From Amnibacterium flavum (GTDB taxonomy: Bacteria > Actinomycetota > Actinomycetes > Actinomycetales > Microbacteriaceae): DNA of 64,000 bases. Position 1 is the first letter of the stretch, and the number at the start of each line of letters is the position of its first letter. The stretch spans positions 1,054,001-1,118,000 of the forward strand of contig NZ_QEOP01000001.1 of the NCBI RefSeq assembly GCF_003097495.1, in the 5' to 3' direction. The notes under the pieces were generated by a model. The model did not search any database, was not told where the DNA came from, and saw nothing but the letters and a program-made list of their open reading frames with translations. This document shows positions 6,041 through 44,813 of the stretch, in pieces. The position numbers were made by a program, and so were the translations under genes.

Positions 6041-6120
6041 GCCTGACACCCTGCCACGACGCCGGGGGAACGCGTGGCCGGGCACGGCGCCGAGTCGGGC
6101 GTGCCCCCCGCCGCCTGTGT

Positions 6121-6126
6121 CATGCT
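6121..6126 (+). promoter_or_regulatory. Possible -10 box (CATGCT) of the RNA methyltransferase gene
   Basis: CATGCT is followed by seven bases and the ATG at 6134, the spacing of a leaderless start. The hexamer is a weaker match (first base C), so this is tentative. Confidence 0.35.
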
Positions 6127-6133
6127 CGACGCG

Positions 6134-7399: not shown

Positions 7400-7524
7400 C
7401 TCTCGGTCGAGCAGGCGCGGGATTACGCGGAACGGACGACCGTTCTGTCCCCCCGGCGCGCCGTGGCCCGGTTATCGGCGGATTCGACCGAATAATGGAC
7501 GCACCGTGAAAGGGGGGCGTGCAC

Positions 7525-7533
7525 CCGGGGTAC
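7525..7533. promoter_or_regulatory. CCGGGGTAC motif upstream of the response regulator gene
   Basis: CCGGGGTAC at 7525-7533 is the reverse complement of GTACCCCGG, found twice exactly and twice in shortened form in the gap downstream of this same operon. It lies about 20 bases upstream of a TACGAT -10-like box (7553-7558) and 44 bases before the start codon, a position suited to autoregulation by the response regulator. Confidence 0.5.
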
Positions 7534-7552
7534 GTTTGGCCCCCATCGCCCC

Positions 7553-7558
7553 TACGAT
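7553..7558 (+). promoter_or_regulatory. -10-like box (TACGAT) of the two-component operon
   Basis: TACGAT sits 18 bases before the ATG at 7577, leaving room for a short leader that contains AGGACAGGACCAGGGG as ribosome-binding region. No clear -35 hexamer was found at normal spacing; the GGGGTAC motif occupies that area, which may indicate activator dependence. Confidence 0.4.
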
Positions 7559-7576
7559 TAAGGACAGGACCAGGGG

Positions 7577-13017: not shown

Positions 13018-13776
13018 TCAGGCCGACCGGCGGCGCAGGTGGAGTCGGCGCAGCAGACCCCACCAGGTCACCCGGAGCATCGCCTCGGCGACGATCGAGC
13101 GGCTCATCTTCGATACTCCGCTGATCCGCTCCCGGAACTCGATCGGCACCTCGGTCACCCGGGCGTCCGAGTCGACGGCGCGCAGGGTCATGTCGATCTG
13201 GAAGCAGTAGCCGCGCGAGTGGACGTCATTGAGGTGCAGGGCGCCGAGCAGCTCGGCGCGGTAGGCTCTGAACCCCGACGTCGAGTCGCGGGTCGGGATG
13301 CCGAGGGCGACGCGAGCGTACGTGTTGCCGCCCCGGCTCAGCGCCTGGCGTGCTGTCGACCAGTCGACGACGCGGCCGCCCGGCACCCAGCGCGACCCGA
13401 TCGCGAGGTCGGCACCGCCGAGGGTGACGGCGTCGAGGAGGTCGCCGAGCTGTTCCGCGGGGTGGGATCCGTCGGCGTCCATCTCGATGAGCACGTCGTA
13501 GCCACGGCCGAGGGCCCACTCGAATCCGCTGAGGTAGGCCCGACCCAGACCGTCCTTCGTCTGCCGGTGCAGCACCGATACGCGTTCGGAGGCGGTGGCG
13601 ATGCGGTCGGCGAGGTCGCCGGTGCCGTCGGGCGAGCCATCGTCGACGACGAGGATGTCGAGGCGGGGATCCGCCGCGAGGACCAGATCGACCACCGTCT
13701 GCAGCGTCTCCACCTCGTTGTAGGTGGGGAGGACGACGACGGCGCGGAGAAGGTCGGGGGCAGCCTCGTCTGGCAC
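13018..13776 (-). CDS. Polyprenol monophosphomannose synthase-like GT2 glycosyltransferase
   Basis: The 252-residue protein is a soluble, single-domain GT2 enzyme similar to DPM1/Ppm1: VVVLPTYNEVETL at the N-terminus, VVDDGSPDGTGD for nucleotide binding, EMDADGSHP containing the metal-binding DAD, and SGVSKM near the C-terminus. Such enzymes attach mannose (or a related sugar) from GDP-mannose to polyprenyl phosphate on the inner membrane face, giving donors for extracytoplasmic GT-C transferases. A GtrA flippase-like protein at 15221 and a DUF6541 membrane protein at 21959 are possible partners. No membrane domain is fused here, unlike mycobacterial two-domain Ppm1. The start is GTG with a TAGTAT box six bases upstream. 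Confidence 0.88.
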   Translation of the reverse strand: MPDEAAPDLLRAVVVLPTYNEVETLQTVVDLVLAADPRLDILVVDDGSPDGTGDLADRIATASERVSVLHRQTKDGLGRAYLSGFEWALGRGYDVLIEMDADGSHPAEQLGDLLDAVTLGGADLAIGSRWVPGGRVVDWSTARQALSRGGNTYARVALGIPTRDSTSGFRAYRAELLGALHLNDVHSRGYCFQIDMTLRAVDSDARVTEVPIEFRERISGVSKMSRSIVAEAMLRVTWWGLLRRLHLRRRSA

Positions 13777-21958: not shown

Positions 21959-23977
21959 TCAGAGAAGCGGCCCGCAGGCGTCGATCCGGTACAGCACCGT
22001 CGACCCCTCGGTGAGGACGGGGACGAGGGTGGCCGACGCGACGGCGCGGTCGATTCCCGCGTAGAGGGCGGCCTGCGGATCGGTGCCGCCCCACAGCTTC
22101 TCGGGATCGGCGATCACGTAGCGGACGCGGAGGTTATCGAGCGCTTCGCAGACGTCGGGCGAGGTGCCCGCCTCGTCGAGCCGGGTGGCGACGATGTCGC
22201 GGTCAGCGCCCCACACTCCGACGAGATGGGGGAAGACGGGTTCGCGATGTCCGATGGCCCAGACGAGGGAAGAGCCGTCCCACGGGTTGCTCAGCACGCG
22301 CTGATCCGCGGGAACGATGCTGGCAACCTGCTCGAGCAGCGCGATCTCGTCGGCGTCGATGAGCGTGCCCGCCTTCTCGCTCTGCGGCAGGGCGAACGTG
22401 CGGCCGATCTGCTCGCTCATGACCGACAGAGTCGGGCCGAACCAGGAGAGCAGCACGGTCGCGGCAAGAGCGGCCGCCGCGATCCGGGGACCGTGCCGGA
22501 TCCCGCGCCGTAGCCACTCGAGGGTCAGCACGATGAGCGGGATGCTCAGCAGAGGGAGCACCGAGATGAGCCGGTACTTGTCCTTGTACCAGGCCGCGGT
22601 GAGGATTTTCGCGAGGTCGTCGTTGGATCCGGCGGCCAGGCAATACAGCACCCCCATGACGAGCACGCCGAGTACAACGGGCAGCGCGCGGCGACTGCGG
22701 AACGCCAGCACTGCTCCGGCGAGCACAGCGGCAGCGAGAAGGATCGCGGGAGGCAGCGGGAGATCTCCCGGGGCCGACAGCGGCGCCGCGGTCAACACCT
22801 GGATGGCCGACGCGAGCAGATCCTGGTGCGCGGTCGCGGGCCCGCCGGTCAGCCGATTCGAGATGGGGTCGTTGACGAGGTCGTAGGCGCGCACGAGGAT
22901 CACCCCCGCCGCCGCAACAGCGATGACAACGGCCGCGATGGGGATCGCCACGACGGCCATCGCCGAACGCCGGCGTCCCGCCCGCCGCAGACCCTGGCTC
23001 GCGAGCACGATGACCAGCACCGCGAGCGGCACCGCCAGTGCCACGAAGGTGATGAGAGTCCGCGGATGTGCGAACACCGCGGCGACCACCCACACCAGCA
23101 GGAGTGAGGCGGGGTAGACACTGCGCCGGAACGCCGGGAGCACGCCGCGCGCGAACGCGACCCGGTTGAGCGGCACCGCGAACCAGAGGAGCGCGAGGCC
23201 GGCGGGCAGCAGCGCGGTGGCGAGGCCCGTCGGGTACAGCGTGCCCCAGCTGAGCAGCAGGTAGGGGAAGGCGGCGAAGCAGGTCGACAGGGCGACCGGG
23301 ATGAGAAGACGCCAGCCGGGCAGAGCATGCCGGCCGACCACCGCACGGGTGAGCAGCACCACTCCCGGAGTCCACAGCGCGCCCGCCACTGCGATCCACA
23401 CCGCTCCCGTCGCGGTCGCGACAGGTACGAGCGCGATCTGGGAGGTCAAGGCAACCAGCGAATGCCAGGCGGCGGGATAGAAGTCGATCGAGGCGCTGTC
23501 GGGGTTCGTCAGCCGGTACAGCTCGAGGGATGACGCCCGTCCGGTGTCGAGGATCGAGGCGGCCGCGTTCAGGTGGAAGACCGCGTCATAGGTCTGACTG
23601 ATCGCGCCCACCGGGGTGTCCCGGTAGGCGATCACGCCGACGACGATGAGGGCCACCAGGGCGCCCGCGCTCAGAACGAGGGCGTCATGAGAGGAACCGC
23701 GTGCCCAGGCGGGAGGCGTCCTCTTGCGCATCAACAGCCGGGTCGCGATCGCAGCCACGAGGGCCAGCACCAGCACGGACCACCAGCCGAACCACACCCC
23801 GACGAACTCGCTCAGCACTCCGACGACGCCGACCGTCGCAATGGTCAGCGGAGCGGCCAGCGCGACCAGTGCGATGCCTCGAATACTCGCAGCCCCCGCG
23901 ATCAGCAGGCCCGGCGTGACGAGCACCACGACGGCGACGAAGGTCGACCAGACCACGGAGGGATCGAGCAGAGTCAT
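21959..23977 (-). CDS. Large polytopic membrane protein, DUF6541-like (possible GT-C transferase)
   Basis: The 672-residue protein has about 14 predicted helices followed by an extracytoplasmic C-terminal domain of about 190 residues. An early loop after the third or fourth helix contains YDAVFHLNAAASILD, whose acidic and histidine residues resemble the first-loop catalytic motif of GT-C glycosyltransferases; the C-terminal part contains NPWDGSSLVWAIGHREPVFP. I infer a transferase using polyprenyl-phosphate sugars for a wall glycan; this is unproven. ATG 23977 is chosen over GTG 24010 because a TAGCGT box at 24015-24020 would start transcription downstream of the latter. Confidence 0.75.
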   Translation of the reverse strand: MTLLDPSVVWSTFVAVVVLVTPGLLIAGAASIRGIALVALAAPLTIATVGVVGVLSEFVGVWFGWWSVLVLALVAAIATRLLMRKRTPPAWARGSSHDALVLSAGALVALIVVGVIAYRDTPVGAISQTYDAVFHLNAAASILDTGRASSLELYRLTNPDSASIDFYPAAWHSLVALTSQIALVPVATATGAVWIAVAGALWTPGVVLLTRAVVGRHALPGWRLLIPVALSTCFAAFPYLLLSWGTLYPTGLATALLPAGLALLWFAVPLNRVAFARGVLPAFRRSVYPASLLLVWVVAAVFAHPRTLITFVALAVPLAVLVIVLASQGLRRAGRRRSAMAVVAIPIAAVVIAVAAAGVILVRAYDLVNDPISNRLTGGPATAHQDLLASAIQVLTAAPLSAPGDLPLPPAILLAAAVLAGAVLAFRSRRALPVVLGVLVMGVLYCLAAGSNDDLAKILTAAWYKDKYRLISVLPLLSIPLIVLTLEWLRRGIRHGPRIAAAALAATVLLSWFGPTLSVMSEQIGRTFALPQSEKAGTLIDADEIALLEQVASIVPADQRVLSNPWDGSSLVWAIGHREPVFPHLVGVWGADRDIVATRLDEAGTSPDVCEALDNLRVRYVIADPEKLWGGTDPQAALYAGIDRAVASATLVPVLTEGSTVLYRIDACGPLL

Positions 23978-24169
23978 CGGCTTCCGGAAATGCGTGGCGG
24001 GACGGGTCACCCACGCTACCCGATGCGTCGGTGCCGCCGCGGATCGCCGCGACAGCAGCGCGCGAGTCCGTATGCAACTCTCCGCGTATCGGGTCAGGTC
24101 AACCCGCCAATCGGCAAAGGCTCTTGTCAGGACCCTGCAACTGCCACGCGACCAGCTTTCATCCGAGCG

Positions 24170-33461: not shown

Positions 33462-35336
33462 TCACTGCCCCATCCAGAGGGCCTTCACCTCTTGCTCGCC
33501 GTCCGCTGTCGCAACCCACCCCACTCGCACGGGCGCTGTGAACTCGACTCGCGCCGACATCACATCCGCTGTCAGGACGGCGGGTCGGGAGGCGAAAAAG
33601 ACGGTGCCACCAGCCGGAGGAAGGTCCTCGTCCGCACTGATGACCGTCTCGTCGCCGTCCGACCGGGTGAGGACGAGCTTCGCGTCGACATCGCCGGTGA
33701 CGTCCGCCGCTTGGGCGATGAGGGCGATCGCCGCCACCGAACGATCTGCAACCTCATCGGGAATGTCGAGGTCGAGCACATAAAGCCCGTTCCGTTCTTG
33801 GGGCACCGGTTTCATGCCGACACCCGCGGTGACGGAGCCGTACAGCATCTGGCACCCTCTGCCGTAGGCCGGCCAGCCGAACGGCGCCACGGGGATGCAC
33901 ACGACTGGGTCGGCGGTCGTCAGCTCGGGCGCCACTTCCTGCCACTGCAGGACGTCTCCCAGCGGAGCCGTCAGCGGCTGGCTGATGCGAGAGGCGTATG
34001 TTCCCCATCCGGTTGCCACGAACCAGACCACGAAGACGGCGACGCTAACGGTGCGGATGGTCGTGGGAACCCCCGCCTCGTTCCAGCTGTGCCTGGTCGC
34101 CGCGAGCAAGGTTGCGATGAGGGAGCGGACAGGGCGGGCTTCCACGATCTGCGACACAATGCCGCCGACAATCACTATGGCGCCGAAGACGGCGACGATG
34201 ACGCGTCTGTCGTAACCGCCGAGCGACAGGAAGGAGCCATCGGGGACGAACCAGTTGGGGAAGCTCACGGCATTCAGCAGCATGGTGGCCGCGACGAGCG
34301 AGACCCCGACGAGGACGAGGGCTCCGGCCCTCGATCGGAGCCCCAGCACGCAAGCGAACACCAGCGCGAGCAAGCCGAGACCGATTAGGGGCAGCCATTC
34401 GATTGGGAAGGGGGTGATGGCACCGAGAAGGAACCGGGGAAGGAAGCCGAGAGTGTAGATCACGGCCGCCCACACTTTGTCGATCAGGGTGGAGTCAGCG
34501 TCGGTCTGCAGGAGGGATCCGCCCGAGCGCGCACTCAGGGCGAGGCGGACGACCTGACCAGCTCCCGCCAGCAACGACACGATCATGATCCGCCGGAAGC
34601 GGCCCCTGCTGAGCAGCCCCGCGGCGACCACGGCTGGAAGGACTGTCAGCACTGCGGGCTTTGAGACGAGGAATAGAGGGGTCAACCATGCCCAAGCCGG
34701 CACATTCCGGCGCGGTTGAACGAGTGCGAGCGCGGCGAGGAAGGCAACCGGCACGACGACGAGATAGGTGAAGTTGATGTACGTGCGCACCTCAAAGTCG
34801 ATGACCATCAGGCACGCCGCAGCGATGAGGAAGCGGAGCACGTCGCTTGCGATGACGGGTCGGAACGCGGGGAGCACGATCACACCGACCACCATCGCCG
34901 ACAGGATCAGTGCCGTGAAGGTGTAGAAATACGGGATCGATGTCGGCGGCAGATCGAGGAAGTTTCCTACGAGACCGACGATACGTTGTGGCAAGGGGAT
35001 GTAGCCAGCGTCGGTAGCGAGTAGCTGTGTGCGGAGAGACGACGATTCCGCGTTGGCGTAGTAATTGGTCGCCATCTCGGCCCACATCTCGCCACCCAGA
35101 ACGAACCGTGGCGAGAAGATCACCTGGTGAGCGAGGTAGAGCGGCGGGAGCAGAGCGAACAGGAGCAGCGGCAGCCGGGTGGGGCGCCGGTCGTCCTGTG
35201 GATTGGAGAGGCCGAAAAGCCACCGTCGACCGATCTCCGCCCTGGTCGAGACTATGGCGCTGATGTGCGAGACACGGGAGAGGGTGGTCATGATGGCTCC
35301 GCGGTCGGACTGGGGGGAGAGACGTGGTGCGCTCAT
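33462..35336 (-). CDS. Polytopic membrane protein (possible GT-C-type transferase)
   Basis: The 624-residue protein has about 12 predicted helices from residue 40 to 470 and a C-terminal extracytoplasmic domain of about 150 residues with CIPVAPFGWPAYGRGCQMLYG. The loop after the first helix contains GGEMWAEMATNYYANAES, acidic residues placed like those of GT-C enzymes. It is the last gene of the coupled operon that starts at 42547; its ATG overlaps the HAD stop by one base. I infer transfer of a polyprenyl-linked sugar outside the membrane. No named family recognised. MTTLSRV at 35291 is an alternative start. Confidence 0.75.
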   Translation of the reverse strand: MSAPRLSPQSDRGAIMTTLSRVSHISAIVSTRAEIGRRWLFGLSNPQDDRRPTRLPLLLFALLPPLYLAHQVIFSPRFVLGGEMWAEMATNYYANAESSSLRTQLLATDAGYIPLPQRIVGLVGNFLDLPPTSIPYFYTFTALILSAMVVGVIVLPAFRPVIASDVLRFLIAAACLMVIDFEVRTYINFTYLVVVPVAFLAALALVQPRRNVPAWAWLTPLFLVSKPAVLTVLPAVVAAGLLSRGRFRRIMIVSLLAGAGQVVRLALSARSGGSLLQTDADSTLIDKVWAAVIYTLGFLPRFLLGAITPFPIEWLPLIGLGLLALVFACVLGLRSRAGALVLVGVSLVAATMLLNAVSFPNWFVPDGSFLSLGGYDRRVIVAVFGAIVIVGGIVSQIVEARPVRSLIATLLAATRHSWNEAGVPTTIRTVSVAVFVVWFVATGWGTYASRISQPLTAPLGDVLQWQEVAPELTTADPVVCIPVAPFGWPAYGRGCQMLYGSVTAGVGMKPVPQERNGLYVLDLDIPDEVADRSVAAIALIAQAADVTGDVDAKLVLTRSDGDETVISADEDLPPAGGTVFFASRPAVLTADVMSARVEFTAPVRVGWVATADGEQEVKALWMGQ

Positions 35337-36049
35337 CACGCCCCGAAGACCGCTTCGACCTCGCGCTCGATCTCGGCGAGACGGGTCCACCGGGTGACAC
35401 GATCGGACGGGACAGGCTCGCGGACGAAGCCTCGGCCGGTTCCGATGGTGCCCCGGGCCATCAGTTCGTCAACCGGGGCGTCGATGTCTCGGTCGCCGAC
35501 GAACCACACCGTCTCGCGAACGGATTCCGGGAGTCGGTCAAAGAGGAGCTCGAACGGCAACAGGCTGGCCTTCTCCTCGCGCGTCTCCTCGGAGCACACG
35601 ACGTGATCGAAATGCTTGTCGAGGTTGAAATAGGTGAGCTTGCGGAACTGGATTTGGGCGGTCAGGTCCGTCACCATCGCGACGGGGATGGTGTTGTAGC
35701 GGAGCGTCTGCAGCAATTCAACGGCCCCCGGGCGCAGCTGCGCCGTCAGCAGGAAGGTCCGCCAGTACTCCTGCTCCATAGAAAGCGCTGCGAGCGGCTC
35801 GCTCCTCAGACCTACGAGTTCGAGGAATTCGTGGCAGTAGAGCAGCCGGCTGTGGCTGCTGGCGACCGAGCCGAGGCGTCTCTTGACGTTGGCACGCGCC
35901 GTCGCGAAGAGTTCGGTAATACCCGCAGCCTTGAGCCCCAGCTCGGTCGCCGCGTATCGCTCGAGGGCCGCGCGGCCGGCGCGGTCGCACGGCGCGTATT
36001 CGTAGAGCGTGTCGTCGAGGTCGAAGATGACCAGCTTCGGTGCGCTCAT
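35336..36049 (-). CDS. HAD superfamily hydrolase
   Basis: The 237-residue protein shows all HAD motifs: I, FDLDDTLYEY with nucleophile Asp10 and Asp12; II, VTD in VAMVTDLTAQ; III, a lysine in REEKASLLPF; IV, WFVGDRDIDA. A helical cap lies between residues 15 and 95. It should dephosphorylate a small phosphorylated metabolite. The ATG overlaps the stop of the kinase-fusion gene by four bases, suggesting they act on the same intermediate. Substrate unknown; in sugar and polyol activation pathways such phosphatases act before nucleotidyl transfer. Confidence 0.88.
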   Translation of the reverse strand: MSAPKLVIFDLDDTLYEYAPCDRAGRAALERYAATELGLKAAGITELFATARANVKRRLGSVASSHSRLLYCHEFLELVGLRSEPLAALSMEQEYWRTFLLTAQLRPGAVELLQTLRYNTIPVAMVTDLTAQIQFRKLTYFNLDKHFDHVVCSEETREEKASLLPFELLFDRLPESVRETVWFVGDRDIDAPVDELMARGTIGTGRGFVREPVPSDRVTRWTRLAEIEREVEAVFGA

Positions 36050-38169
36050 TTGCGTGAGGGGCCTTCCGTTCGGTTGCGCCGCCGCTCGAGCATGGCGAGC
36101 ACGACGATCAATTGCATAACTCCGCGAGTTTTCCCTAGCCACTGCGGCGCACCCACGAAGAGTTCGCGAGACCGCTTCACGAGTTGGCTCGCCACCGCCG
36201 CGGTGTCGGCCGGGTCAAGCAGCTCGGGGTAGGTCGTGAAACGAATCCGTCCGGGCTGATCCTGGTATTCGATTGTTGACGCGACGCCGGCGATAGCGGA
36301 TAGCGAACGCTGCAGCTCTTCCGCGAACGAAAGGTCGCGGAGTTGAGCGATCAGGCGTAGTTCGTGGTGGGTGGAGCGCACCGCGTCATCCTCGGGGAGG
36401 GCACTGATCGGCTCGATGCGGAAGACGATGTCCGCGAGTTCCGCCTGTGGAGTCACGAACCGATCAGCGTGCTCATAGCGTCGCTCAATCGAGCTGACGA
36501 CGGTTTCCAGGCTCTGCCCGCGCTCGCCGACGTCACGATTGATCTTGAGCTGGCGACGGAGGCGTTCGTCCATAGAGGTGAAGACGGTAAGGTCGGCGGC
36601 TCGTCTCACATCAGCGGATACAAGGGCGTGGAGACCATTGATCACGACCAGTTCACGGTGATGCACCGGGCGTTGCTTCGTGAAGCGGCCGCGGCTGTGG
36701 TCGTAGTGCTTGGCCCAAACGCCCCGACCCCGCATGAGGCTCAGGGCGTCGCGAGAGAGACCGCTGAGATCGTTGGTCGCGGGGTGGAGGTGGGTCGTGT
36801 TCTTCCAGACGGGGGCGCCGCGTTCGTAATGGTGATAATCGTCTCCCATCACGAAGGCGGTCGCGTCCTCGCCGAAGACATTCGCGAGCGAGATACAAAG
36901 CGTGTCCTTGCCTGTGCCGCTGTCGCCGGCGATCGCCACGGAGAGTGGCGCCGAACTAAGGGCGTATAGGTCGTGGCGGGCGCCGTAACCCCGGTACACC
37001 ATGAGGAGCGCCACGGCGCCGATTGCGACGGTCGCAGTGGCGAGAACGGGGCCTAGGACCCCAGAGTTCATCACAAAAGAGCCGACCTCCACGAAGTCGC
37101 TCGGCTGCACCGGATCCGCTGCCCGGTAGTCGGCTCCCGATGCGCGCAGAGCGACCGTGACGGTCGCGGCCGCCCAGAACAACCAGGTCACCAGAGTGAC
37201 TCGATAGCCGCTGACCACCACCAGGATGGCGAGGATGGGGACCGACCAGACGAACCACCCTGGGCTCGCCGGCGTCAGAAGAGTGGTGGCCGTGAGGGCG
37301 ATGCCGATGAGCATCACGAGCAAGTCCGGATTACTGCGCTTCTTCGTGTACTGCAATCCAAGTATCGCGGCATAGACCACGGGCAGCACCACGATCGTCA
37401 GACCGGGGCCGAGATCGACGGCATACTCGACGACCGAGAGGAGCATCGGCGTCTCAGTCACCATGATCCTGTATCCGGGCAGGAAACTCGGGAGGGCGGC
37501 GAGAAGCAGACCGGGCGTCAGTCCAAGTACATAGGGGAGGGTGTATCGCCGCCATCGAGCGTTCCGCAGGAGGAAGATGAGCACCAACGGCGGGACGAGC
37601 GCGGAGGAGAGCTTCGCGGCGATAGCCAGTCCAATGAACACGCCAGAGCGCCGCCAGCGCCGGTCGCGCAGGTCGAGCGCACTGAGCAGCATCAGCAGCG
37701 TGGGGACCAGGTCCAGCTGGCCGTGCACGTAAGTGGCGTAGATGACGATCGGAGCGATGATGAAGAGGGTGGTCGCCGCACGACCGCCATTACGCACGCG
37801 ATGACGGAGCACGACGCAGATGAGCACGTCGGCTGCTAGGAGTCCTAGCGCGATACCGATCTGGATCGAGAATGACGACGGCAACCAGAGGGTGATGCCG
37901 GTCCAGAAGAGGAACCACAGGAACATTACAGGGCCGTACGGGAACGCCTGCGGGTCACCCCCCTGTGACAGATAGGTCTGCCACGGGTCGATGCTGGGCT
38001 GCTGCCAGAAGGTGGCGAAGAACGGCGTGAACCACGCCGACTGGATCTGAGGGACGAGGAACAGGATGAGGAGAACACGCACGGCGGCGCCACCGGCGGC
38101 GACCAGGAAGAAGAGCCTTTCCGGCCGGACGGACCGGAAGGCGACGAGGACGCCGCTCAGTTCCACCAC
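36046..38169 (-). CDS. GT-C-like membrane protein fused to a uridine kinase/phosphoribulokinase-like P-loop domain
   Basis: The 707-residue protein has two parts. Residues 1-400 carry about 11-12 predicted helices with features of DUF2029/mannosyltransferase-like GT-C proteins (FYPY-like PYGPVMFLWFLF and a long periplasmic first loop). Residues 405-700 form a P-loop kinase: GDSGTGKDT at 415-423, MGDDYHHYERG (base/substrate lid), and INGLHAL and FTSMDERLRRQLKINRD further on, as in uridine kinase and phosphoribulokinase. GTG 38169 is chosen because AGGAGG is seven bases upstream. A membrane transferase fused to a soluble kinase is unusual and ties phosphorylation to a membrane step; the substrate is unknown. 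Confidence 0.8.
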   Translation of the reverse strand: MVELSGVLVAFRSVRPERLFFLVAAGGAAVRVLLILFLVPQIQSAWFTPFFATFWQQPSIDPWQTYLSQGGDPQAFPYGPVMFLWFLFWTGITLWLPSSFSIQIGIALGLLAADVLICVVLRHRVRNGGRAATTLFIIAPIVIYATYVHGQLDLVPTLLMLLSALDLRDRRWRRSGVFIGLAIAAKLSSALVPPLVLIFLLRNARWRRYTLPYVLGLTPGLLLAALPSFLPGYRIMVTETPMLLSVVEYAVDLGPGLTIVVLPVVYAAILGLQYTKKRSNPDLLVMLIGIALTATTLLTPASPGWFVWSVPILAILVVVSGYRVTLVTWLFWAAATVTVALRASGADYRAADPVQPSDFVEVGSFVMNSGVLGPVLATATVAIGAVALLMVYRGYGARHDLYALSSAPLSVAIAGDSGTGKDTLCISLANVFGEDATAFVMGDDYHHYERGAPVWKNTTHLHPATNDLSGLSRDALSLMRGRGVWAKHYDHSRGRFTKQRPVHHRELVVINGLHALVSADVRRAADLTVFTSMDERLRRQLKINRDVGERGQSLETVVSSIERRYEHADRFVTPQAELADIVFRIEPISALPEDDAVRSTHHELRLIAQLRDLSFAEELQRSLSAIAGVASTIEYQDQPGRIRFTTYPELLDPADTAAVASQLVKRSRELFVGAPQWLGKTRGVMQLIVVLAMLERRRNRTEGPSRK

Positions 38170-38774
38170 CAATCCGCCTCCTGTCGCTCCCATTCAGCGG
38201 GGCGCTTCGTGCAGACGCCGTGCAGGGGCACCCGCGCCTCTCTGAGAAGCGCCTCGATCATCGGGACCTCGGCGTCGAGGTCGCGGCCTTGGAGCTCGGG
38301 GCTAACGAGCATCAAACGGAAGCCGTGCTCAACGAGCCGGCGGAGGTCGCCGGGGCTCGGCCAGCGTCCATGGAAGGAGTCCACCCACACCCAGTGCGGT
38401 GTCGGGTCGAGAGCAAGCGCCGTTTCGACCGATTCGTACTCGGAGACTCGCACCATGGTGCGACGTTCGCCGCGGCGCAAGGTGCGCACGAGGAACGGGA
38501 AGGACTGGTCGAGATACGCCCACTCGCTGAGGCCGCGGGCAGCGAGGATCTCCTCGATGCGCGACTCGAGCCCTTCCTCCTTCGTATTGAGAACGATGAA
38601 GCGGTGGTGATACGAGTCCAGCCAGGTCTCGAAGCTCGGGCCCGTCGTGAAGGCGTCGTGGACGAGGACCAGCTGGTCGCCGTCCGCATGCAGATCGATC
38701 TCCACCCCGAAGCGCGGGTCGAGGTTGTCGAGATCGGCCGGATCGTTGACCCTATGCGAGCAGATGATGGTCAC
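38157..38774 (-). CDS. Glycerophosphodiester phosphodiesterase-like (TIM-barrel) protein
   Basis: The 205-residue protein opens with VTIICSHRVNDPADLDN and has GVEIDLHADGDQLVLVHDAF, which correspond to the HRG, ExD and HD motifs of GDPD-like enzymes; later strands WVWVDSF and LMLVSPEL fit the barrel. The canonical HRG is HRV and the length is on the short side, so activity on glycerophosphodiesters is not certain. GTG overlaps the previous stop (GTGA). In this operon it could hydrolyse or transfer a phosphodiester-linked polyol. Confidence 0.72.
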   Translation of the reverse strand: MTIICSHRVNDPADLDNLDPRFGVEIDLHADGDQLVLVHDAFTTGPSFETWLDSYHHRFIVLNTKEEGLESRIEEILAARGLSEWAYLDQSFPFLVRTLRRGERRTMVRVSEYESVETALALDPTPHWVWVDSFHGRWPSPGDLRRLVEHGFRLMLVSPELQGRDLDAEVPMIEALLREARVPLHGVCTKRPAEWERQEADWWWN

Positions 38775-39487
38775 AACGACTTCCTCAGAGCGAGGCTGAA
38801 ACCTACGGTTCGCTTGATGAATTTCTTCTTCGCCGACCAATCGGTGTTCCACGACGACGAGCCGAACTTCCGGGGCACGAAGAGCACGGGGACGCGGCGG
38901 ACCTGGAAGCCGCGCCTGCGTGCGGTGTAGAGGGCGAAGAGGTCAAGGCTAAAGTCGTCAGGCGGTGTTCCCCATACGTCGATCAATTCCCGCGAGAACA
39001 TCGTCGGCTGGGCGTTGATGTCGTTCAGCCGCGACCGCAGCAGCAGGCTCTCGAAGATGGACATCCCAATTGTGAAGGCCACGTCCACAGCAGGTCGGCC
39101 GAGTCGACGGCCCTTGACGATCGTCCGTGCGCCTGGCTCGAATCGGTCGAGGGCTCGGAGCGCGTCCGCCGGGTCGGCCTGCAGGTCGGCGTGTGTCCAA
39201 CCGATCACGGGTGCGTCGCACACTCGCAGCCCCGACACGATTCCGAATCCGTAACCGCGGTTGACAGCCACCTGCACCCAGCGAACGCCCCCGCCCTCAG
39301 CGGCGGAGCCCGCGGGCCCGAGCTCGCGTTCGAGGACGGCCGCGGTGTCATCGGAAGACCCGTTGTCCACGAGGACGACCTCGCCCGACCCGGCATGAGC
39401 CGTGAAACGGCACCGTGTCAGGAGTTCGGGCAGCCCGGCGGCCTCGTTGTAGCACGGGATGACGAGGGAGAATCGTGGGGCGCTCAC
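38771..39487 (-). CDS. DPM1-like GT2 glycosyltransferase
   Basis: The 238-residue protein starts FSLVIPCYNEAAGLPELL, has VDNGSSDDTAAV and a metal-site region GWTHADLQADPADAL (DLQ in place of DAD), and RKFGSSSWN near the C-terminus, similar to polyprenyl-phosphate glycosyltransferases. It lacks a membrane anchor. GtrA is encoded directly upstream (GTGA overlap), the pair recurring in polyprenyl-phosphate-sugar flipping systems. It probably makes polyprenyl-phosphate-linked sugar for the GT-C-like proteins in the same operon. Confidence 0.85.
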   Translation of the reverse strand: MSAPRFSLVIPCYNEAAGLPELLTRCRFTAHAGSGEVVLVDNGSSDDTAAVLERELGPAGSAAEGGGVRWVQVAVNRGYGFGIVSGLRVCDAPVIGWTHADLQADPADALRALDRFEPGARTIVKGRRLGRPAVDVAFTIGMSIFESLLLRSRLNDINAQPTMFSRELIDVWGTPPDDFSLDLFALYTARRRGFQVRRVPVLFVPRKFGSSSWNTDWSAKKKFIKRTVGFSLALRKSL

Positions 39488-39918
39488 ATTGACTCCTTAT
39501 CAGGGGCGGAGTGGTCGGCGGTATCGCCAGGCCTGGCGAAGACGAATAACGACATGCCGATGAAGTTCCAGGCGGCCGACGTTCCGGTGGCGACGAGGAA
39601 GGCGAGCGACGCGACCGCGACCGAGTCGGGATCGATCGAGCGCACCCACGCGTTGAGCAGGACGTTGATGAGGAGGGCTGTGAGGTAAACCAGGACGAAG
39701 AGGAGCTCGCTCCACCGGCTCCGTCTCCGCCCGAAGGTGAAGCGCCAGTTCGCGAAGTAGGCGAAGACCGCGCCCGCGATGAAGCTCATTGCCTTTGCGG
39801 GATCGTACCCGAGTCCGGTGGTGGACAGCAGGGCGTAGACCCCCGCATCGATCAGCACCGTGGTACCGCCCACCAGCAGAAAACGGAGGAACGGTCCGAG
39901 CTGTCCTCGGGCGGTCAT
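39484..39918 (-). CDS. GtrA family membrane protein
   Basis: The 144-residue protein has four predicted helices with FLRFLLVGGTTVLIDAGVYALL and AYFANWRFTFGRRR, the GtrA hallmark. Its start overlaps the nucleotidyltransferase stop by ATGA and its stop overlaps the GT2 start, so it sits in the centre of the coupled operon. It is the second GtrA in the window (the other at 15221), matching a second polyprenyl-phosphate-sugar route. Confidence 0.9.
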   Translation of the reverse strand: MTARGQLGPFLRFLLVGGTTVLIDAGVYALLSTTGLGYDPAKAMSFIAGAVFAYFANWRFTFGRRRSRWSELLFVLVYLTALLINVLLNAWVRSIDPDSVAVASLAFLVATGTSAAWNFIGMSLFVFARPGDTADHSAPDKESM

Positions 39919-41570
39919 CGACTCCCACCAGGGAAGGCGACGAAGTCGCGGAACTCCGCGTCGAGTTCGGCACGTTCGAGCGGGTCGACCAACGGGTCGG
40001 CCGCGAGCGCGTAAGGGTGATGCGACCACTTGTGGAAACAGGACTGCCAGTATCGCGCCGACTCATACTCGGCCGGGGTGCCGACCGCGATGAAGGAATC
40101 AGTATTGAAGGCTACGACCGGGCGACCCGCCCTCAACTGACGGGAGATGAGGCTGTCGAGGTAAAACTCACCCCGTACTCGCTCATCGTCGGCCATCAGT
40201 TCCTCGATCATTCCGATGGCGGACGACGCGGAGCCGAAGGTGAAGGTACCGATCACGACTCCCGCCTTGTCCGAGCCGGGAACCTCCTTTAGCCAGATGT
40301 CGTTGATCGCGCCGTCATCGCCGGCGACGGCCCAGCCGTACTGGCCCGGATTGCGCGCCGCGGAATGGTAAGGGCGGGCGAGCCAGACCACCAACCCGTC
40401 CGGTCCAGCGAGCTCGACAGCGCGGCGGAGAGCGGCGCTCCGCCCTGTGGGGATGGCGTCGCACGCGCCGACGGTGACGGGACCCGTCCCGGTCACCGCG
40501 CGCAGCCCGTAGAGAGCGGACTCGGCCTGACCGCGGGTCAGTCCTTCCAGCTCAACCAGGGCGGCACCCAGGCGGGACGCGAGGCGACCGAGCAGTCCGG
40601 AGTCGGGCAGATCCTTGCGGGTCACCACGACCGTCTCCTTCCCGGGGAGACAGGCGAGCGCATGTTCGAGCACCGTGCGGCCCGCGAGAGGTAGCACTGG
40701 CTTTGGCAGGGTATAACCAGCGTCGCTGAACCGTTTGCCTGCGCCCGAGGCGAGAACAACGCGGCTCGCCTCGCTCATCTCAGTGCCGATCAGACGGTCG
40801 GAGTTCCAACGGGCGATCGCCCGGCTCGACTCGCGGTACTCCTCGAAGTCCTGCGGCGTTCCCCACTGCATGAAGTGCTGTAGGTGCATGACCTCGACGT
40901 GTCCGCCCTGCGCCAGCAGAGGCTTGTAGGTGAGGCTCACGTAATACTCGCCACCGAGGAGGAGTTCCTCCTCTACCTGCTTCTCGAGTGATCGGAGCAA
41001 GAGAGCTCCCGAGGCGAAGCCGTACGTGCCGGAAGACGCGTACTCGCTGCGGGGATCGTCAGTCCAGGGCTGCTTCTCCTGAATGTCGATCGCCCGCTGC
41101 CCCTTCGTCTTGACGTACGCGTAGGACGTCGAGTGGGCCATGTGCGGGTGGAAGCCCGAGTAGACCGGGATCACTCCGTCGACCTCGCCCGAGAGCAAGC
41201 GCTGGGCCAGGGGTGCTGGATCCCAGAAGACGGTGAAGTCGCAGTAGTTGACGACGACCGGCTTGTCGAGAGCGATGTGATCCCGGGCCTGCAGGATCGC
41301 ATCGCCGGGCCCGGCGCCCTTGCCCTCGAGGCGGACGACGGTGGCGCCCGGTCGCCGGGCAAGTAGGCGTCGCTCCAGGTCGAGGGCCGGGTCGTCCAGA
41401 TGCGTCGAGTTGCAGATGAAGACGACGTCGTCCCAGCCCGGGTACATGTCGATCACGTGGTCGACAACGGTGATGCCCTCGGCCTCGAGGAGGAACTTCG
41501 GCACCGTGTAGCCGGCCGCGGTGAATCGGGAGCTGATACCGGTCATCGGGATGACGAGCTGGGGGGTCAT
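39915..41570 (-). CDS. Tandem two-domain nucleotidyltransferase
   Basis: The 551-residue protein carries two nucleotidyltransferase domains in a row. Domain 1 (residues 1-255) begins VIPMTGISSRFTAAGYTVPK; domain 2 (about 265-540) begins VVLASGAGKRFSDAGYTLPK. Both have the G-x-(R)-F...PK pattern of sugar- or polyol-phosphate nucleotidyltransferases, in which domain 1 has lost the second glycine. The C-terminal tail reads YALAADPLVDPLERAELDAEF. Two active sites in one chain suggest either two substrates or a catalytic/regulatory pair. It is coupled to the aldolase-like gene (ATGA) and is the likely activation step of this pathway. Confidence 0.82.
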   Translation of the reverse strand: MTPQLVIPMTGISSRFTAAGYTVPKFLLEAEGITVVDHVIDMYPGWDDVVFICNSTHLDDPALDLERRLLARRPGATVVRLEGKGAGPGDAILQARDHIALDKPVVVNYCDFTVFWDPAPLAQRLLSGEVDGVIPVYSGFHPHMAHSTSYAYVKTKGQRAIDIQEKQPWTDDPRSEYASSGTYGFASGALLLRSLEKQVEEELLLGGEYYVSLTYKPLLAQGGHVEVMHLQHFMQWGTPQDFEEYRESSRAIARWNSDRLIGTEMSEASRVVLASGAGKRFSDAGYTLPKPVLPLAGRTVLEHALACLPGKETVVVTRKDLPDSGLLGRLASRLGAALVELEGLTRGQAESALYGLRAVTGTGPVTVGACDAIPTGRSAALRRAVELAGPDGLVVWLARPYHSAARNPGQYGWAVAGDDGAINDIWLKEVPGSDKAGVVIGTFTFGSASSAIGMIEELMADDERVRGEFYLDSLISRQLRAGRPVVAFNTDSFIAVGTPAEYESARYWQSCFHKWSHHPYALAADPLVDPLERAELDAEFRDFVAFPGGSR

Positions 41571-42547
41571 CGCTTCAGGCTCCTGCGCCACTTCTCGGCT
41601 TCCCAGTTGATGAGTGAGTCGACCTCGGATGCCGTCAGGGCTCGCGCTCGCGGGGCGTCGCTCAACCGCGCCACATCGACGATGCTGATGGCGATCTCCG
41701 CCTCATCTTGGCCGAGGTCGTCACGTAGCCATACCGCTCCGTCGTCGGTGACGATCGCCGCGGCGTCGTCGGCCTCGTCGCGCGTTGCGAAGGGGTGCGG
41801 CCCGAGGAAGACCGCCTCATCGGGCGTCAGCGCGCCGAGACGCAGGAGACGGGACGCGCCCTCACCGACGGTGCCCGCGGGGTGCAGGAGACGCCAGCCC
41901 TCGGGCGTCCCAGAGGAGTCCACCGGGGAGGAAGCGGGGGGTGCGGCTGACGCGAATCGTGCGTGCACGGCCCTGGTCACTGCGGCCGCGGTCGCCGCGT
42001 CGTCGGCGGCGGTGACGACGCCGTGATTGACGAGGAGCAGGGCGAGGGGGCGCTCGGATCCAGTGCCGCTCCCGAGTGCCGCCATTACTGCGCGGGCGAG
42101 TTCGAGTCCGGGCTTCGCGTACGGCACGACGAGCAGGTCGAACCACCCCTCGGAGGAGATGGGATGGCCGTCCAACGACAGGCCCCACGCGATGGCGCCC
42201 GTGCTGTGAGTGTGGAAGACGAAGGCATGCGGCAGGAGGGCGTGAAGCGCGGTCTCAATGGATGGACGCAGACCTGAGTCGGCGTAGTCGGCCCGTACGA
42301 GATGCCCGAATGACTCAGTCTCGAGCACGGCCGCCCGAGTCTCCGCAAGGCGCAAGGGCACGAAGATCGGCCGTGCGGTCGCCTCCGCCAGGCGAGTGCC
42401 GGAGGCCTTGATCCAGAGGGTGTTGTCGACCTTCACGGAGAGGTTCCCGCCGGCGCCCTGCACGAGGCGGAGATCGTGCCCGATCTCCAGTGCGAAGGAC
42501 TTCATGTCCTCTACTCCTCGGGGGAGCATGTCGGTGCTGTCGCTCAT
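41567..42547 (-). CDS. Class II aldolase/adducin family protein
   Basis: The 326-residue protein contains LVQGAGGNLSVKVDN, IKASGTRLAEA, HTHSTGAIAW (zinc-binding histidines) and LLLVNHGVVTAADD, the motif set of class II aldolases such as RhaD, AraD and FucA. The C-terminal 100 residues extend beyond the basic fold. It is the first gene of the coupled minus-strand operon. Reaction unknown: aldol cleavage, epimerisation or dehydration of a sugar phosphate. A GAGAAT box seven bases upstream of ATG suggests a leaderless start of the operon. Confidence 0.82.
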   Translation of the reverse strand: MSDSTDMLPRGVEDMKSFALEIGHDLRLVQGAGGNLSVKVDNTLWIKASGTRLAEATARPIFVPLRLAETRAAVLETESFGHLVRADYADSGLRPSIETALHALLPHAFVFHTHSTGAIAWGLSLDGHPISSEGWFDLLVVPYAKPGLELARAVMAALGSGTGSERPLALLLVNHGVVTAADDAATAAAVTRAVHARFASAAPPASSPVDSSGTPEGWRLLHPAGTVGEGASRLLRLGALTPDEAVFLGPHPFATRDEADDAAAIVTDDGAVWLRDDLGQDEAEIAISIVDVARLSDAPRARALTASEVDSLINWEAEKWRRSLKR

Positions 42548-42663: not shown

Positions 42664-43905
42664 TCACTCCGGCGACACGGCCATCGTCGTGATGGTGGAC
42701 CGTGCTCGCACGGTCCCGGACTGGTCCGGGTCCTCCGCGACGGAGAACATGGCTCCCTGCCAGAAGATATCCCACTGCTTGTTCTCGCCGTTCGAGATCT
42801 CGGCGTTGACGAAGTACTGCCCCCCAGCGAGAGGCAGCTCATGGATCTCGTAGCGGATGACCGAGACCCCGGCGGGCGCAGCGGGATGCGGAGTGTGTGA
42901 GCGAAGGGTACCCGCGCCGTAGACCTGCTGGCCGTGGGGGGTGTCGATGCTCATCGAGCTGTTCCATTCGCCCGTGGGTTCGGAATGCTCGACGGCTACC
43001 TCGATGACGACGCTTTCGCCGCCGTCGAGATTCTTCAGCACGCGCCCTTCGGTATTGCGCACGGTGATGCTGCGGATCTTGGACGAGGCGGGCTCTTCCT
43101 CCTCGGCTGGATCGTCGAGAGTGAGCTTGCGTTTCTCCTCGAGAATTTCGCGGTGCACCTTCGTGGCCTCGGTCGCGGAGCCGACAAACGCGATCTCACC
43201 GGCCCTCAGCACCACTCCCCGGTCGCAGATCTCCGTGACCTGGGCCGCCGAGTGCGAGACCAGCACGATGGTGCGCCCCTCTTGCTGGAACTGCCGGATT
43301 TTGTCCATGCACTTGCGCTGGAACGCCTCATCTCCGACAGCAAGGACCTCGTCGACTAGGAGAAGGTCCGGATTGGTATGCACGGCGACGGCGAAAGCGA
43401 GGCGCACGTACATGCCGGACGAGTAGAACTTCACCTGGGTATCGATGAAGTCGCCGATCTCGGAGAAGGCCAGGATGCTGTCGAACTCCGCATCGGTCTC
43501 TTCCTTCGACAATCCGAGGATCGACGCGTTCAGGTAGACGTTGTCGCGGCCGGAGAGATCGGGGTGAAACCCCGCACCGAGCTCTAGCAGGGCAGCGATC
43601 CTCCCTCGTCGCCGCACTGACCCGGACGTCGGGTCGATGATGCCGCCGATGACCTTGAGCAGCGTGCTCTTTCCCGAGCCGTTCGTGCCGATGAGACCGA
43701 TGGTCGAACCGGCCTCCACATCAAACGTGATGTTCTTCAGGGCGTCGAACTTTTCGCGGTGGGCGCGCCCGCTGCGCCCCAGCGTCACAATGCGCTCCTT
43801 GAGCGAATTATCCCGTCGCAGCACAAACGTCTTGGAGACGTTGTTGACCTCCACGATCTTGGGGCCCAGGGGCATGACTTCCGAGTGGTCGGTGATCCGC
43901 GTCAT
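42664..43905 (-). CDS. ABC transporter ATP-binding protein with C-terminal Wzt-like substrate domain
   Basis: The 413-residue protein has an ATPase domain (residues 10-250) with Walker A GTNGSGKST, signature YSSGMYVRL, Walker B LLLVDEVLAVGD and H-loop VLVSHSA, typical of polysaccharide/teichoic acid exporters (TagH, RfbB, Wzt). Residues 290-413 form a beta-rich domain like the Wzt carbohydrate-binding part, with FVNAEISNGENKQWDIFWQG. ATG 43905 overlaps the permease stop. It provides energy for export of the wall polymer built by the glycosyltransferases upstream. Confidence 0.93.
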   Translation of the reverse strand: MTRITDHSEVMPLGPKIVEVNNVSKTFVLRRDNSLKERIVTLGRSGRAHREKFDALKNITFDVEAGSTIGLIGTNGSGKSTLLKVIGGIIDPTSGSVRRRGRIAALLELGAGFHPDLSGRDNVYLNASILGLSKEETDAEFDSILAFSEIGDFIDTQVKFYSSGMYVRLAFAVAVHTNPDLLLVDEVLAVGDEAFQRKCMDKIRQFQQEGRTIVLVSHSAAQVTEICDRGVVLRAGEIAFVGSATEATKVHREILEEKRKLTLDDPAEEEEPASSKIRSITVRNTEGRVLKNLDGGESVVIEVAVEHSEPTGEWNSSMSIDTPHGQQVYGAGTLRSHTPHPAAPAGVSVIRYEIHELPLAGGQYFVNAEISNGENKQWDIFWQGAMFSVAEDPDQSGTVRARSTITTMAVSPE

Positions 43906-44813
43906 CACAGCTCCTGAGCGAAGTTGCCCTGCAGGCGGGAGAAGACGCGCTGGCATCCCCATAGCAGCAATAGCCCGACCACGATGGCAATGCCCATTCG
44001 CAGAGCGAGGTCGGCAGGGTAGTCGCTGGGGGTGCCGGCCACCCAGAACGCCCGGTGGAACCCGAGGACGGCGATCGTCACGGGGTTGGCCGAGTAAACA
44101 TCAAGCAGCCACTGCGGAAGGCCCAGCCTGTCGATGACCTGCTGCACCATCGTCCAGCCGTAGACAATTGGCGACGACCACAGGGCCAGCATGAGCAGGA
44201 TTGAGGTCAAATACTGCACGTCACGGAGATAGACGTTGATTGCCGAGAGAAGGATGCCTAGGGAGACGGCGTAGATCACCACGATGAGCACGGCCGGCAG
44301 GAAATACAGCAACCCCATGGACAGAGGCGCCGAGTCCAGGATCAGGCAGGCGGCCACGAGCACGATGAGCTGCACGCCGAAGGTAACCAGCGCCGATCCC
44401 GCGGTCGCGAGAGGGAAGATCTCGCGGGGTACGTAGACCTTCTTCACCAATCCCGAATTGGCAACAATCGATCCAGTCGCGGCGCTGAGTGTCTCCGAGA
44501 AGAGACCGAAGATAGTCAGTCCGGAAAAAATGTAGATGGCGAAGTCCGGGATTCCACGCGCCGCTCCGAGTATTTGGCCGAGGACCAGCCAGTAGATCAG
44601 CAGCTGAACGAGTGGATTGATGAGGGTCCAGAGCATGCCGAGGGCGCTGTCCTTATACCGCGCCTTGACATCTCGCCGAACAAGCAGGCCTAGCAGGGCT
44701 CGATGGTCGATAACGGCCTTCAGGGTCGTCCACGAACCACGGGATGCGCTAGCGGTCGGCACGAGGGGTTCGTCGGCGAGCCTCGCGAACCTCTGGAGTG
44801 CTCTATCGCTCAC
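43905..44813 (-). CDS. Polysaccharide ABC exporter permease (ABC-2 type)
   Basis: The 302-residue protein has six predicted helices and motifs of O-antigen/teichoic acid permeases: RDVKARYKDSALGMLWTLINPL at the N-terminus and PVTIAVLGFHRAFW near the end. It pairs with the ATP-binding protein encoded downstream with TGATG overlap. GTG start; SD GGAAGGA lies ten bases upstream and a TAGGAT box (44850-44855) falls in the 45-base gap after the GlfT2-like gene, indicating an internal promoter. It would move polyprenyl-diphosphate-linked polymer across the membrane. Confidence 0.93.
   Translation of the reverse strand: MSDRALQRFARLADEPLVPTASASRGSWTTLKAVIDHRALLGLLVRRDVKARYKDSALGMLWTLINPLVQLLIYWLVLGQILGAARGIPDFAIYIFSGLTIFGLFSETLSAATGSIVANSGLVKKVYVPREIFPLATAGSALVTFGVQLIVLVAACLILDSAPLSMGLLYFLPAVLIVVIYAVSLGILLSAINVYLRDVQYLTSILLMLALWSSPIVYGWTMVQQVIDRLGLPQWLLDVYSANPVTIAVLGFHRAFWVAGTPSDYPADLALRMGIAIVVGLLLLWGCQRVFSRLQGNFAQEL

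Follow-up and report, generated by a model that had tools for sequence, protein, structure and literature searches.

A cassette of eight ORFs occupies the minus strand of the Amnibacterium flavum window at positions 33462–42547, the window being the whole 64,000-nucleotide stretch of contig NZ_QEOP01000001.1 that was analysed (Table 1). All eight frames were confirmed, and inspection of the start codons gives overlaps of 1–16 bases between neighbouring genes at their likely starts, in agreement with the head-to-tail operon of a preliminary description made from the sequence (overlaps of 1–14 bases). The overlap is 4 bases at the starts of genes B (nucleotidyltransferase), C (GtrA), D (GT2), E (GDPD-like) and G (HAD). 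It is 10, 13 or 16 bases for gene F, depending on the use of GTG 38166, GTG 38169 or TTG 38172, with 37 bases resulting from the alternative start ATG 38193; gene H overlaps by 1 or 4 bases (ATG 35336 or GTG 35339), and its alternative start, ATG 35291, leaves a 44-base gap. No tRNA was found within positions 25000–60000 of the window. The end of a polysaccharide ABC exporter lies 116 bases upstream of gene A, outside the cassette.

Table 1. Genes of the cassette and the adjoining exporter, with positions in the window
Feature	Position	Strand	Match or start
Gene A, class II aldolase/adducin family (long form, RhaD-like), first gene	41567..42547	-	PF00596
Gene B, tandem two-domain nucleotidyltransferase	39915..41570	-	PF12804, two stretches; ATG 41570
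Gene C, GtrA family membrane protein (presumed flippase)	39484..39918	-	PF04138; ATG 39918
Gene D, GT2 glycosyltransferase (presumed polyprenyl-phosphate loader)	38771..39487	-	PF00535; GTG 39487
Gene E, GDPD-like phosphodiesterase, presumed cytosolic	38157..38774	-	Predicted GDPD fold; GTG 38774
Gene F, GT87-like membrane domain and phosphoribulokinase-like kinase	36046..38169	-	PF09594 + PF00485
Gene G, HAD phosphatase, nearest model ribulose-1,5-bisphosphate 5-phosphatase	35336..36049	-	PF00702, NF053830; ATG 36049
Gene H, GT-C-like membrane protein ending in a CBM-like domain (presumed acceptor-specific transferase)	33462..35336	-	Predicted fold
Polysaccharide ABC exporter: ATPase with Wzt_C domain, and permease; outside the cassette	42664..44813	-	PF00005, PF14524, PF01061

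The family assignments made at first reading hold, and the Pfam matches (Aldolase_II, two stretches of NTP_transf_3, GtrA_DPMS_TM, Glycos_transf_2, GT87 with PRK, and HAD) all score above their cut-offs. Gene A gives 74.6 bits against 22.2; among NCBIfam models it comes closest to bifunctional aldolase/dehydrogenases (75.8 bits, a score far under cut-off), and the haloarchaeal Ru1P aldolase model NF053831 gives 24.4 bits against a cut-off of 300, compared with up to 75.8 bits for RhaD-type models. The aldolase residues E102, H116, H118 and H179 (alignment numbering) are kept in 74–75 of 76 sequences. The NTP_transf_3 match of gene B (73.5 bits) falls in two stretches that prove to be two whole domains, and the tandem nucleotidyltransferase proposed earlier can be refined in that only the second domain retains both acidic positions, which we take to be metal ligands. 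In domain 1, G13, R17 and K27 are present in 77/80 sequences (the other three have gaps) and Ser214 in 79/80; in domain 2, G278, G280, R282 and K292 are invariant (80/80) and D474 is found in 79/80. Gene E has no Pfam or NCBIfam match, and its earlier designation as GDPD-like is borne out by a predicted structure with a TIM-barrel GDPD fold, in which the HR, ExD and HD active-site residues are kept. Known relatives of this fold act on phosphodiesters, and gene B has a weak match to IspD (18.9 bits), as might be expected if the cassette made a polyol- or glycerol-phosphate substituent, the aldolase supplying a polyol or sugar phosphate, gene B making a CDP-polyol and gene E editing or recycling the phosphodiester; we consider this quite improbable, the IspD score being under the cut-off of 27 and NTP_transf_3 matching far better.

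The membrane arm consists of gene C (PF04138, 66.7 bits against 26.1), gene D (PF00535, 58.9 bits against 23.3), half of gene F (PF09594, 33.7 bits against 25) and gene H. The NCBIfam matches of gene D are weak and all under cut-off, several of them being polyprenyl- or dolichyl-phosphate sugar transferases. Gene H has no Pfam match, and Foldseek alone returned no match at E<=0.001; its predicted structure has a GT-C-like fold followed by a CBM-like domain, and on that model the GT-C transferase component of three-component glycosylation would also be present in the cassette. A GT2 enzyme, a GtrA protein and a GT-C protein point to delivery of a glycosyl group, not of a polyol phosphate.

The eight coupled genes are a genuine conserved cassette. 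Loci were collected with the GDPD-like gene as bait and the best 80 of 152 confirmed ones were analysed, some of them on short contigs; the bait is present in 80/80 by construction. With score thresholds that were chosen post hoc, after the first results, GT2 was found in 75, the two-domain nucleotidyltransferase and the kinase in 74 each, HAD in 73, the aldolase in 72, GtrA in 50 and membrane gene H in 13 of these 80. Among the 57 loci with at least 7 kb on each side of the bait, the nucleotidyltransferase is present in 56, the aldolase, kinase and HAD in 55 each and GT2 in 54; the long loci without some member other than GtrA or H are L017, L023, L027, L073, L084, L086 and L089. Gene order mostly follows one of two arrangements, which recur in dozens of distant genomes. 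A GT87–kinase fusion of the gene F type occurs in 73 of the best 80 of 152 loci, and in 37 cases among these 80 loci the HAD gene immediately precedes the aldolase gene on the same strand. The preliminary description named co-occurrence no higher than that of random neighbours as a refutation, and the set clearly survives this test: against the 72–75/80 of the core members, each of 38 other called genes of the window was matched in 0–9 of the best 80 of 152 loci. These controls came from a codon-usage gene caller, in which a wrong frame would falsely give 0, but Pfam matches back up those controls that are exporter, rhamnose or glycosyltransferase genes. No neighbour cluster from outside the cassette was found in more than 10 of 84 loci, so that the conserved set includes no reductase, a point against polyol synthesis; CDP-polyol activation of the teichoic type was rejected on this and on the IspD score. 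A separate alignment of 79 of 107 listed neighbour genes served only as input for a Pfam scan. The pairwise distances of the seven core families are correlated (r 0.58–0.94; for each of the 21 pairs, 0/300 permutations as high), a comparison that includes shared host phylogeny, for which it was not controlled, and that leaves out L093, L081, L061, L022, L031, L066, L092, L080 and L024 as fragments or split frames.

The distribution of the cassette is sparse. It was found in 0/298 other sampled genomes of the family and 0/395 of the phylum, the first 4–10 candidates per genome having been scored, so that a rare miss is possible, and the nucleotidyltransferase was found in 0/295 other sampled genomes of the class. 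Besides the host, the only actinobacteria named in the record titles of the best 80 of 152 loci (from which labels of MAGs were also taken as given) are Herbiconiux and Blastococcus, and the synteny expected earlier in other Actinobacteria is thus not supported; a conserved actinobacterial wall operon was rejected on the three genome samples. In E. coli the cassette is present in 2/5426 genomes, on plasmids only, and the best 80 of 152 loci come from many bacterial groups and from plasmids, with part of the pathway also found in viral contigs. The cassette is a rarely carried unit that has probably moved horizontally across very different bacteria. Relatives of the exporter ATPase lie near 6, and of the permease near 4, of the best 80 of 152 cassettes, so the exporter next to the cassette in A. 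flavum is not the rule. A general tie to ABC-exported polysaccharides was rejected on this count, the case for a link to rhamnan or galactofuranan is weak, and the tailoring of a rhamnose/galactofuranose wall polymer suggested earlier is not supported.

The kinase domain of gene F and the HAD phosphatase bear on the identity of the sugar. What had been called a membrane–kinase fusion is indeed a fusion, now more closely described as a domain of the GT87 type linked to a kinase that resembles phosphoribulokinase (PF00485, 98.7 bits against 22; phosphoribulokinase model NF005655, 156.1 bits, under its cut-off of 236). The Glu before GLH, presumably catalytic in phosphoribulokinase and present in three aligned PDB kinases, is replaced in 78/78 cassette kinases (by Ser in 69, Asn in 4, Thr in 4 and Gly in 1). 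Gene G (PF00702, 66.5 bits against 26.4) has as its top NCBIfam model the RuBP 5-phosphatase NF053830 (141.6 bits against a cut-off of 330; next model 58.5), and of the HADs of the genome it is the best match to this model (141.5 bits; runner-up 69.1). For each of the four seed HADs the RuBP 5-phosphatase model gives a match (best E 4.3e-56; next model 9.7e-34), as does phosphoribulokinase for each of the four seed kinases (1.1e-60; next 1e-26). No RuBisCO match was found in the A. flavum genome, and the kinase therefore hardly serves carbon fixation; a Calvin-type role was rejected on this and on the loss of the Glu before GLH. The likeness to phosphoribulokinase and RuBP phosphatase suggests a pentose or pentulose, though both scores are under curated cut-offs; a five-carbon sugar taken from the pool of ribulose phosphates is the most likely identity. 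Polyprenyl phosphoribose synthase belongs to the UbiA family; the genome has four UbiA matches, none of them within the window, and a PRPP/UbiA pentofuranose route was rejected on this ground. The literature on xylulose and the papers on fructose in Campylobacter jejuni HS:1 offer a chemical analogy without a testable sequence link, and a search among the carriers for a polymer whose structure is known was without result. Polysaccharides that contain a ketose are listed in PMC8707391 for Devosia submarina, E. coli O95 and Yersinia enterocolitica O:10.

The departure of the kinase site from phosphoribulokinase, and an aldolase nearest to the RhaD type, would also suit a sugar that is not five-carbon, with gene A joining DHAP to an aldehyde to give a larger or branched ketose phosphate, or with a pathway of the heptose kind that runs through an isomerase, a kinase, a phosphatase and a nucleotidyltransferase. 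The annotation of the S-SM2 phage cluster includes phosphoheptose isomerase genes, and a look-alike, judged by eye, stands beside 3/84 cassettes. We regard this as unlikely, though less so than the other alternatives, since the conserved set is without such an isomerase, RuBP phosphatase is the best-E model for the seed HADs, and the kinase is of the PRK family and not of the GHMP type to which heptose kinase belongs; the GmhA/HddA/GmhB/HddC pathway was rejected on the PF00485 kinase and the rarity of the isomerase look-alike.

We think it rather probable that this is a mobile accessory glycan-decoration cassette, which would make an unusual activated sugar, carry it across the membrane on a lipid and attach it to a surface molecule. 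Products A, G, E, B and the kinase domain of F would jointly make one nucleotide-activated sugar, which the GT2 enzyme D would pass to polyprenyl phosphate and the GtrA protein C would flip; the GT87 half of F, or H, or both, would then transfer the sugar, on the outer side of the membrane, to an acceptor that is exported or lies at the surface and that the CBM-like part of H would probably bind. All substrates, the sequence of the reactions, the polyprenyl carrier and the acceptor are inferred, the sugar and the role of E being the least certain. The families for the full route that was outlined beforehand, from a sugar phosphate through kinase and phosphatase, activation, polyprenyl loading and flipping to transfer outside, are all present as judged by sequence or predicted fold; of that earlier interpretation, the route, the synteny and, within the literature searched, the novelty are supported, and the polyol or phosphate substituent, the wall-polymer tailoring and the spread in Actinobacteria are not.

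Two viral contigs (L166 and L167) carry the soluble arm without the membrane parts: the 14.7 and 16.8 kb covered contain neither GtrA nor GT87 nor the GT2 of the cassette. The soluble enzymes adjoin a TAGT-family glycosyltransferase gene in L166 and a thymidylate-synthase-like gene in L167, and because these are DNA-modification-type genes, a nucleotide sugar is favoured over a polyol phosphate. The viral DNA with the soluble half is partly T4-like. The L166 kinase matched five unannotated phage records (28–32 % identity) and its aldolase none in the phage collection, where relatives of gene B occur in 16 Synechococcus phage records; a PHROGs search gave just function-unknown families or weak matches. 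Genes A and B are the most widely kept pair in viral contigs, A being present in 52 of 68 nucleotidyltransferase-anchored loci and the kinase in just 11. This pairing speaks against a catabolic route (Ru5P to RuBP to Ru1P to DHAP and glycolaldehyde, its final two reactions being those of haloarchaea) that only happens to move alongside genes for glycosylation, as do the fusion of the kinase to GT87 and a dedicated nucleotidyltransferase, needless for catabolism. The operon does pair a HAD resembling RuBP phosphatase with a class II aldolase, the two often directly adjoining as noted above, in parallel to the haloarchaeal pair in the excerpts of PMC9700705, and we give such a route very little chance. 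More speculatively, in a scheme that we would call a long shot, the PRK-like kinase and HAD would move a phosphate from position C5 to C1, where one B domain would activate it; the anomeric oxygen would then close a cyclic phosphate, E would open this ring so that the phosphate stays at the anomeric carbon, and the other B domain would activate it there, giving an activated ketopentose of the ribulose or xylulose type; the same module would serve bacterial surface glycans and T4-like phage DNA hypermodification. If true, the scheme would account at once for the tandem nucleotidyltransferase and for the phosphodiesterase.

Extracytoplasmic three-component glycosylation (GT2, GtrA and GT-C) with its own donor-synthesis arm is our best reading, and a reasonably probable one. 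The cassette shares with the GtrB/GtrA/GT-C systems of Salmonella and Shigella a GT2-family enzyme, here a presumed polyprenyl-phosphate sugar synthase, together with a GtrA-type presumed flippase and a GT-C-like transferase, but unlike three-component systems it has its own five-protein donor arm and a kinase–GT87 fusion. In the excerpts of PMC11127046, on the pentofuranose variant with GT136 (Citrobacter youngae), a CBM is reported for the GT136 enzyme, EmbA-C and AftD, comparable to the CBM-like domain beside the GT-C-like fold of H; the donor of that variant comes from PRPP via polyprenyl phosphoribose synthase, whereas the window has no UbiA match. The donor-synthesis arm is apparently undescribed and, as stated in the preliminary description, no pathway with this combination was found in the literature searched. 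It constitutes a nearly complete donor pathway with a candidate for every step except the phosphodiesterase, and solving it would extend the known sugar nucleotides by one, along with the enzymes that make it, and explain a membrane transferase family. The non-carboxylating pentose bisphosphate pathway of haloarchaea, as excerpted from PMC9700705, shares a RuBP-phosphatase-like HAD adjoining a class II aldolase, with RuBP as presumed intermediate, although the cassette has a PRK-type kinase instead of R1P kinase and R15P isomerase, adds a nucleotidyltransferase, phosphodiesterase and glycosyltransferases, and scores under the curated cut-offs. Capsule-type modules (e.g. P. alcaligenes pMRCP2) contain distant relatives of B and E together with HAD (~22–33 % identity), those in L095 and L097 lying near an ABC exporter; unlike the cassette, these modules lack, over the stretches covered, any gene annotated as an aldolase or a PRK-like kinase. 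Phages RB69, NP and Thanatos, none of whose records is among our phage-collection matches, have arabinosyl- or pentosyl-cytosine DNA, and their activated-pentose route is described as unclear or incompletely characterised in the excerpts of PMC6024577, PMC13390438 and PMC12838424. In the same excerpts the gene sets of these phages are proposed to make an activated pentose, there for DNA, a parallel to the soluble arm of the cassette. Solving the donor pathway would also provide a ready test of whether phages use surface-glycan chemistry on DNA.

The cassette is a coupled eight-gene minus-strand operon, as the preliminary description proposed, and more firmly so than could then be known. Its seven junctions overlap by 4, 4, 4, 4, 10-16, 4 and 1-4 bases (starts were picked from overlap and from the position where relatives start), and the Pfam families Aldolase_II, tandem NTP_transf_3, GtrA, GT2, GT87 plus PRK, and HAD are matched over cut-off; the GDPD-like gene and the last gene (H, GT-C-like) have no Pfam match. 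A polysaccharide ABC exporter does adjoin the operon, ending 116 bases upstream, and elsewhere in the window are RgpF rhamnan-synthesis proteins, dTDP-rhamnose enzymes and a UDP-galactopyranose mutase. A large DUF6541 protein (415 bits) lies near the galactofuranose gene. At 0.656, the G+C fraction of the cassette is below the 0.696 of the window's first 20 kb, though the adjoining polysaccharide region is low too (0.649).

Coordinates of the cassette and of other features discussed
Feature	Sequence	Coordinates	Strand	Remark
Eight-gene cassette	window	33462-42547	-	open frames with coupled junctions
DUF6541 protein	window	21959-24010		
GT2 gene	window	13018-13776		highest control gene
Whole cassette	L098, E. 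coli plasmid NZ_CP145712	4986-17325		
PRK-like kinase	L135, viral contig	3403-4845		N-terminal domain phrog_13607
Methyltransferase gene	L012	11242-12057		
Methyltransferase gene	L076	3050-3862		
Distant module	L095, P. alcaligenes plasmid	5995-9151		

The eight-gene set is a unit. When plasmids were searched with tblastn, all eight genes were found on an E. coli IncR plasmid, and the set without H on Azospirillum brasilense p5 and, split into two blocks, on Hirschia baltica pHbal01. These plasmid cassettes served as seeds for a scan of genome contigs with the GDPD-like protein as bait, and the best 80 of 152 confirmed relatives were analysed. Among these 80 loci the nucleotidyltransferase is present in 74, GT2 in 75, GT87 in 76, the PRK kinase in 74, HAD in 73, the aldolase in 72, GtrA in 50 and H in 13; for the 57 loci with at least 7 kb either side of the bait the numbers are 56, 54, 55, 55, 55, 55, 39 and 10 respectively. 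The commonest order within the best 80 is NT-GtrA-GT2-GDPD-GT87/PRK-HAD-aldolase (20 loci); the same order with no GtrA match and the order aldolase-NT-GtrA-GT2-GDPD-GT87/PRK-HAD occur in nine loci each, and two loci match the window, in which H follows the latter. Carriers named in the record titles of this set include Herbiconiux, Blastococcus, Lysobacter, Pseudomonas, Erwinia, Rugamonas, Nitrosospira, Geobacter and Nitrospira, together with acidobacterial, planctomycete, cyanobacterial and Wallbacteria assemblies and others. The expected co-occurrence was borne out by blastp against the same 80 loci, in which cassette genes have relatives at 70-80 loci (GtrA 49, H 13) versus 0-9 for each of 38 other window genes, the highest being a GT2 gene (nine). 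Relatives of the exporter ATPase and permease occur at only 6/80 and 4/80 loci, and the earlier assignment of the operon to a wall polymer is unsupported. Pairwise distances of the seven core families correlate (r 0.58-0.94), which fits joint inheritance and, equally, the shared host tree.

The cassette is rare and mobile. Sampling of the family (298 other genomes, of which five belong to the genus) and of the phylum (395 others) gave no further carrier, nor did 295 other genomes of the class with the nucleotidyltransferase as query; in E. coli it is present in two of 5426 genomes, plasmid-borne both times. On plasmid NZ_CP145712 (L098) the whole cassette is flanked on both sides by IS26 transposase genes. 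A broken AIDA-repeat protein gene adjoins it there. The acceptor may be a surface protein. The L098 DNA recurs in one more E. coli record, which comes from Aquarana catesbeiana. Two contigs of one Pseudomonas piscis MC042 assembly (L042 and L046) have identical family scores and positions, so that either the cassette is duplicated or the assembly has produced an artefact.

With the nucleotidyltransferase as query, a scan of viral contigs yielded 68 loci, many of them truncated. The aldolase is present in 52 of these and the kinase in 11, with GT2 in five, the GDPD-like gene in four, HAD and H in three each, and GtrA and GT87 in two each. Two of these (L106 and L150) may be bacterial DNA, since they contain the entire bacterial cassette. 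In L166, genes for the GDPD-like protein, the aldolase, two separate nucleotidyltransferases, the kinase and the HAD are followed by those of a TAGT-family glycosyltransferase and of a member of a T4 baseplate family; L167 has the same soluble genes, except that HAD was not detected, adjoining a thymidylate-synthase-like gene and a helicase. Only one of the two contigs is clearly T4-like, and we would guess that L167 is also. The viral proteins can be aligned to those of the window at 22-33 % identity. We call the soluble arm a donor pathway mainly because it is found on its own, with no membrane arm, and the polyol-phosphate reading advanced earlier is thus unsupported; the natural product in such phages would be a putative nucleotide sugar for DNA modification. 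In the cyanophages S-SM2 and Bellamy, an unannotated protein that, judging by eye, we take to be a glycosyltransferase lies between this nucleotidyltransferase and a short aldolase. The kinase of L135 has a different N-terminal domain where its bacterial counterpart is fused to GT87.

The kinase, the HAD and a known operon point to a cassette sugar of five carbons. All four seed kinases match phosphoribulokinase, the NCBIfam model with the best E-value (1.1e-60; uridine kinase next, 1e-26), and all four seed HADs match the haloarchaeal RuBP 5-phosphatase model (4.3e-56; next 9.7e-34). In haloarchaea this HAD shares an operon with a class II aldolase whose substrate for cleavage is ribulose 1-phosphate (PMC9700705). 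Against this, the kinase and HAD scores are under the curated cut-offs, and the RuBP phosphatase model also matches weaker HADs in 14 of 14 control genomes. The Glu that precedes GLH in solved phosphoribulokinases is missing from all 78 kinases of the cassette, in which Met, Ile, Leu, Val or Ala also takes the place of a Lys close to the substrate loop; both residues presumably have roles in phosphoribulokinase. The substrate is therefore probably a relative of Ru5P and not Ru5P itself.

The GDPD-like enzyme has a GDPD fold in its predicted structure and conserved residues, although no obvious place in the plain route; we infer only that it might open a ketose cyclic phosphate. Two Wallbacteria loci (L023 and L027) have the aldolase, nucleotidyltransferase, GT2 and GDPD-like genes, but no kinase or HAD close by; elsewhere, too, no convincing kinase was found. 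A methyltransferase gene is present in 10 of 84 loci (L012 and L076, for example), in most cases between the nucleotidyltransferase and GT2, and its putative product possibly methylates the sugar or lipid-linked sugar. Distant nucleotidyltransferase and GDPD-like relatives accompany HAD in L095, L096 and L097, one with a cupin gene; no annotated aldolase or PRK kinase was present in the stretches viewed.

Searches of open-licence PMC articles other than preprints with combinations of the family names returned no description of the set. We regard the donor arm as an apparently undescribed variant. The membrane arm (GT2, GtrA, GT87 and H) may be compared with three-component glycosylation, the lipid-linked donor of the cassette being presumed.
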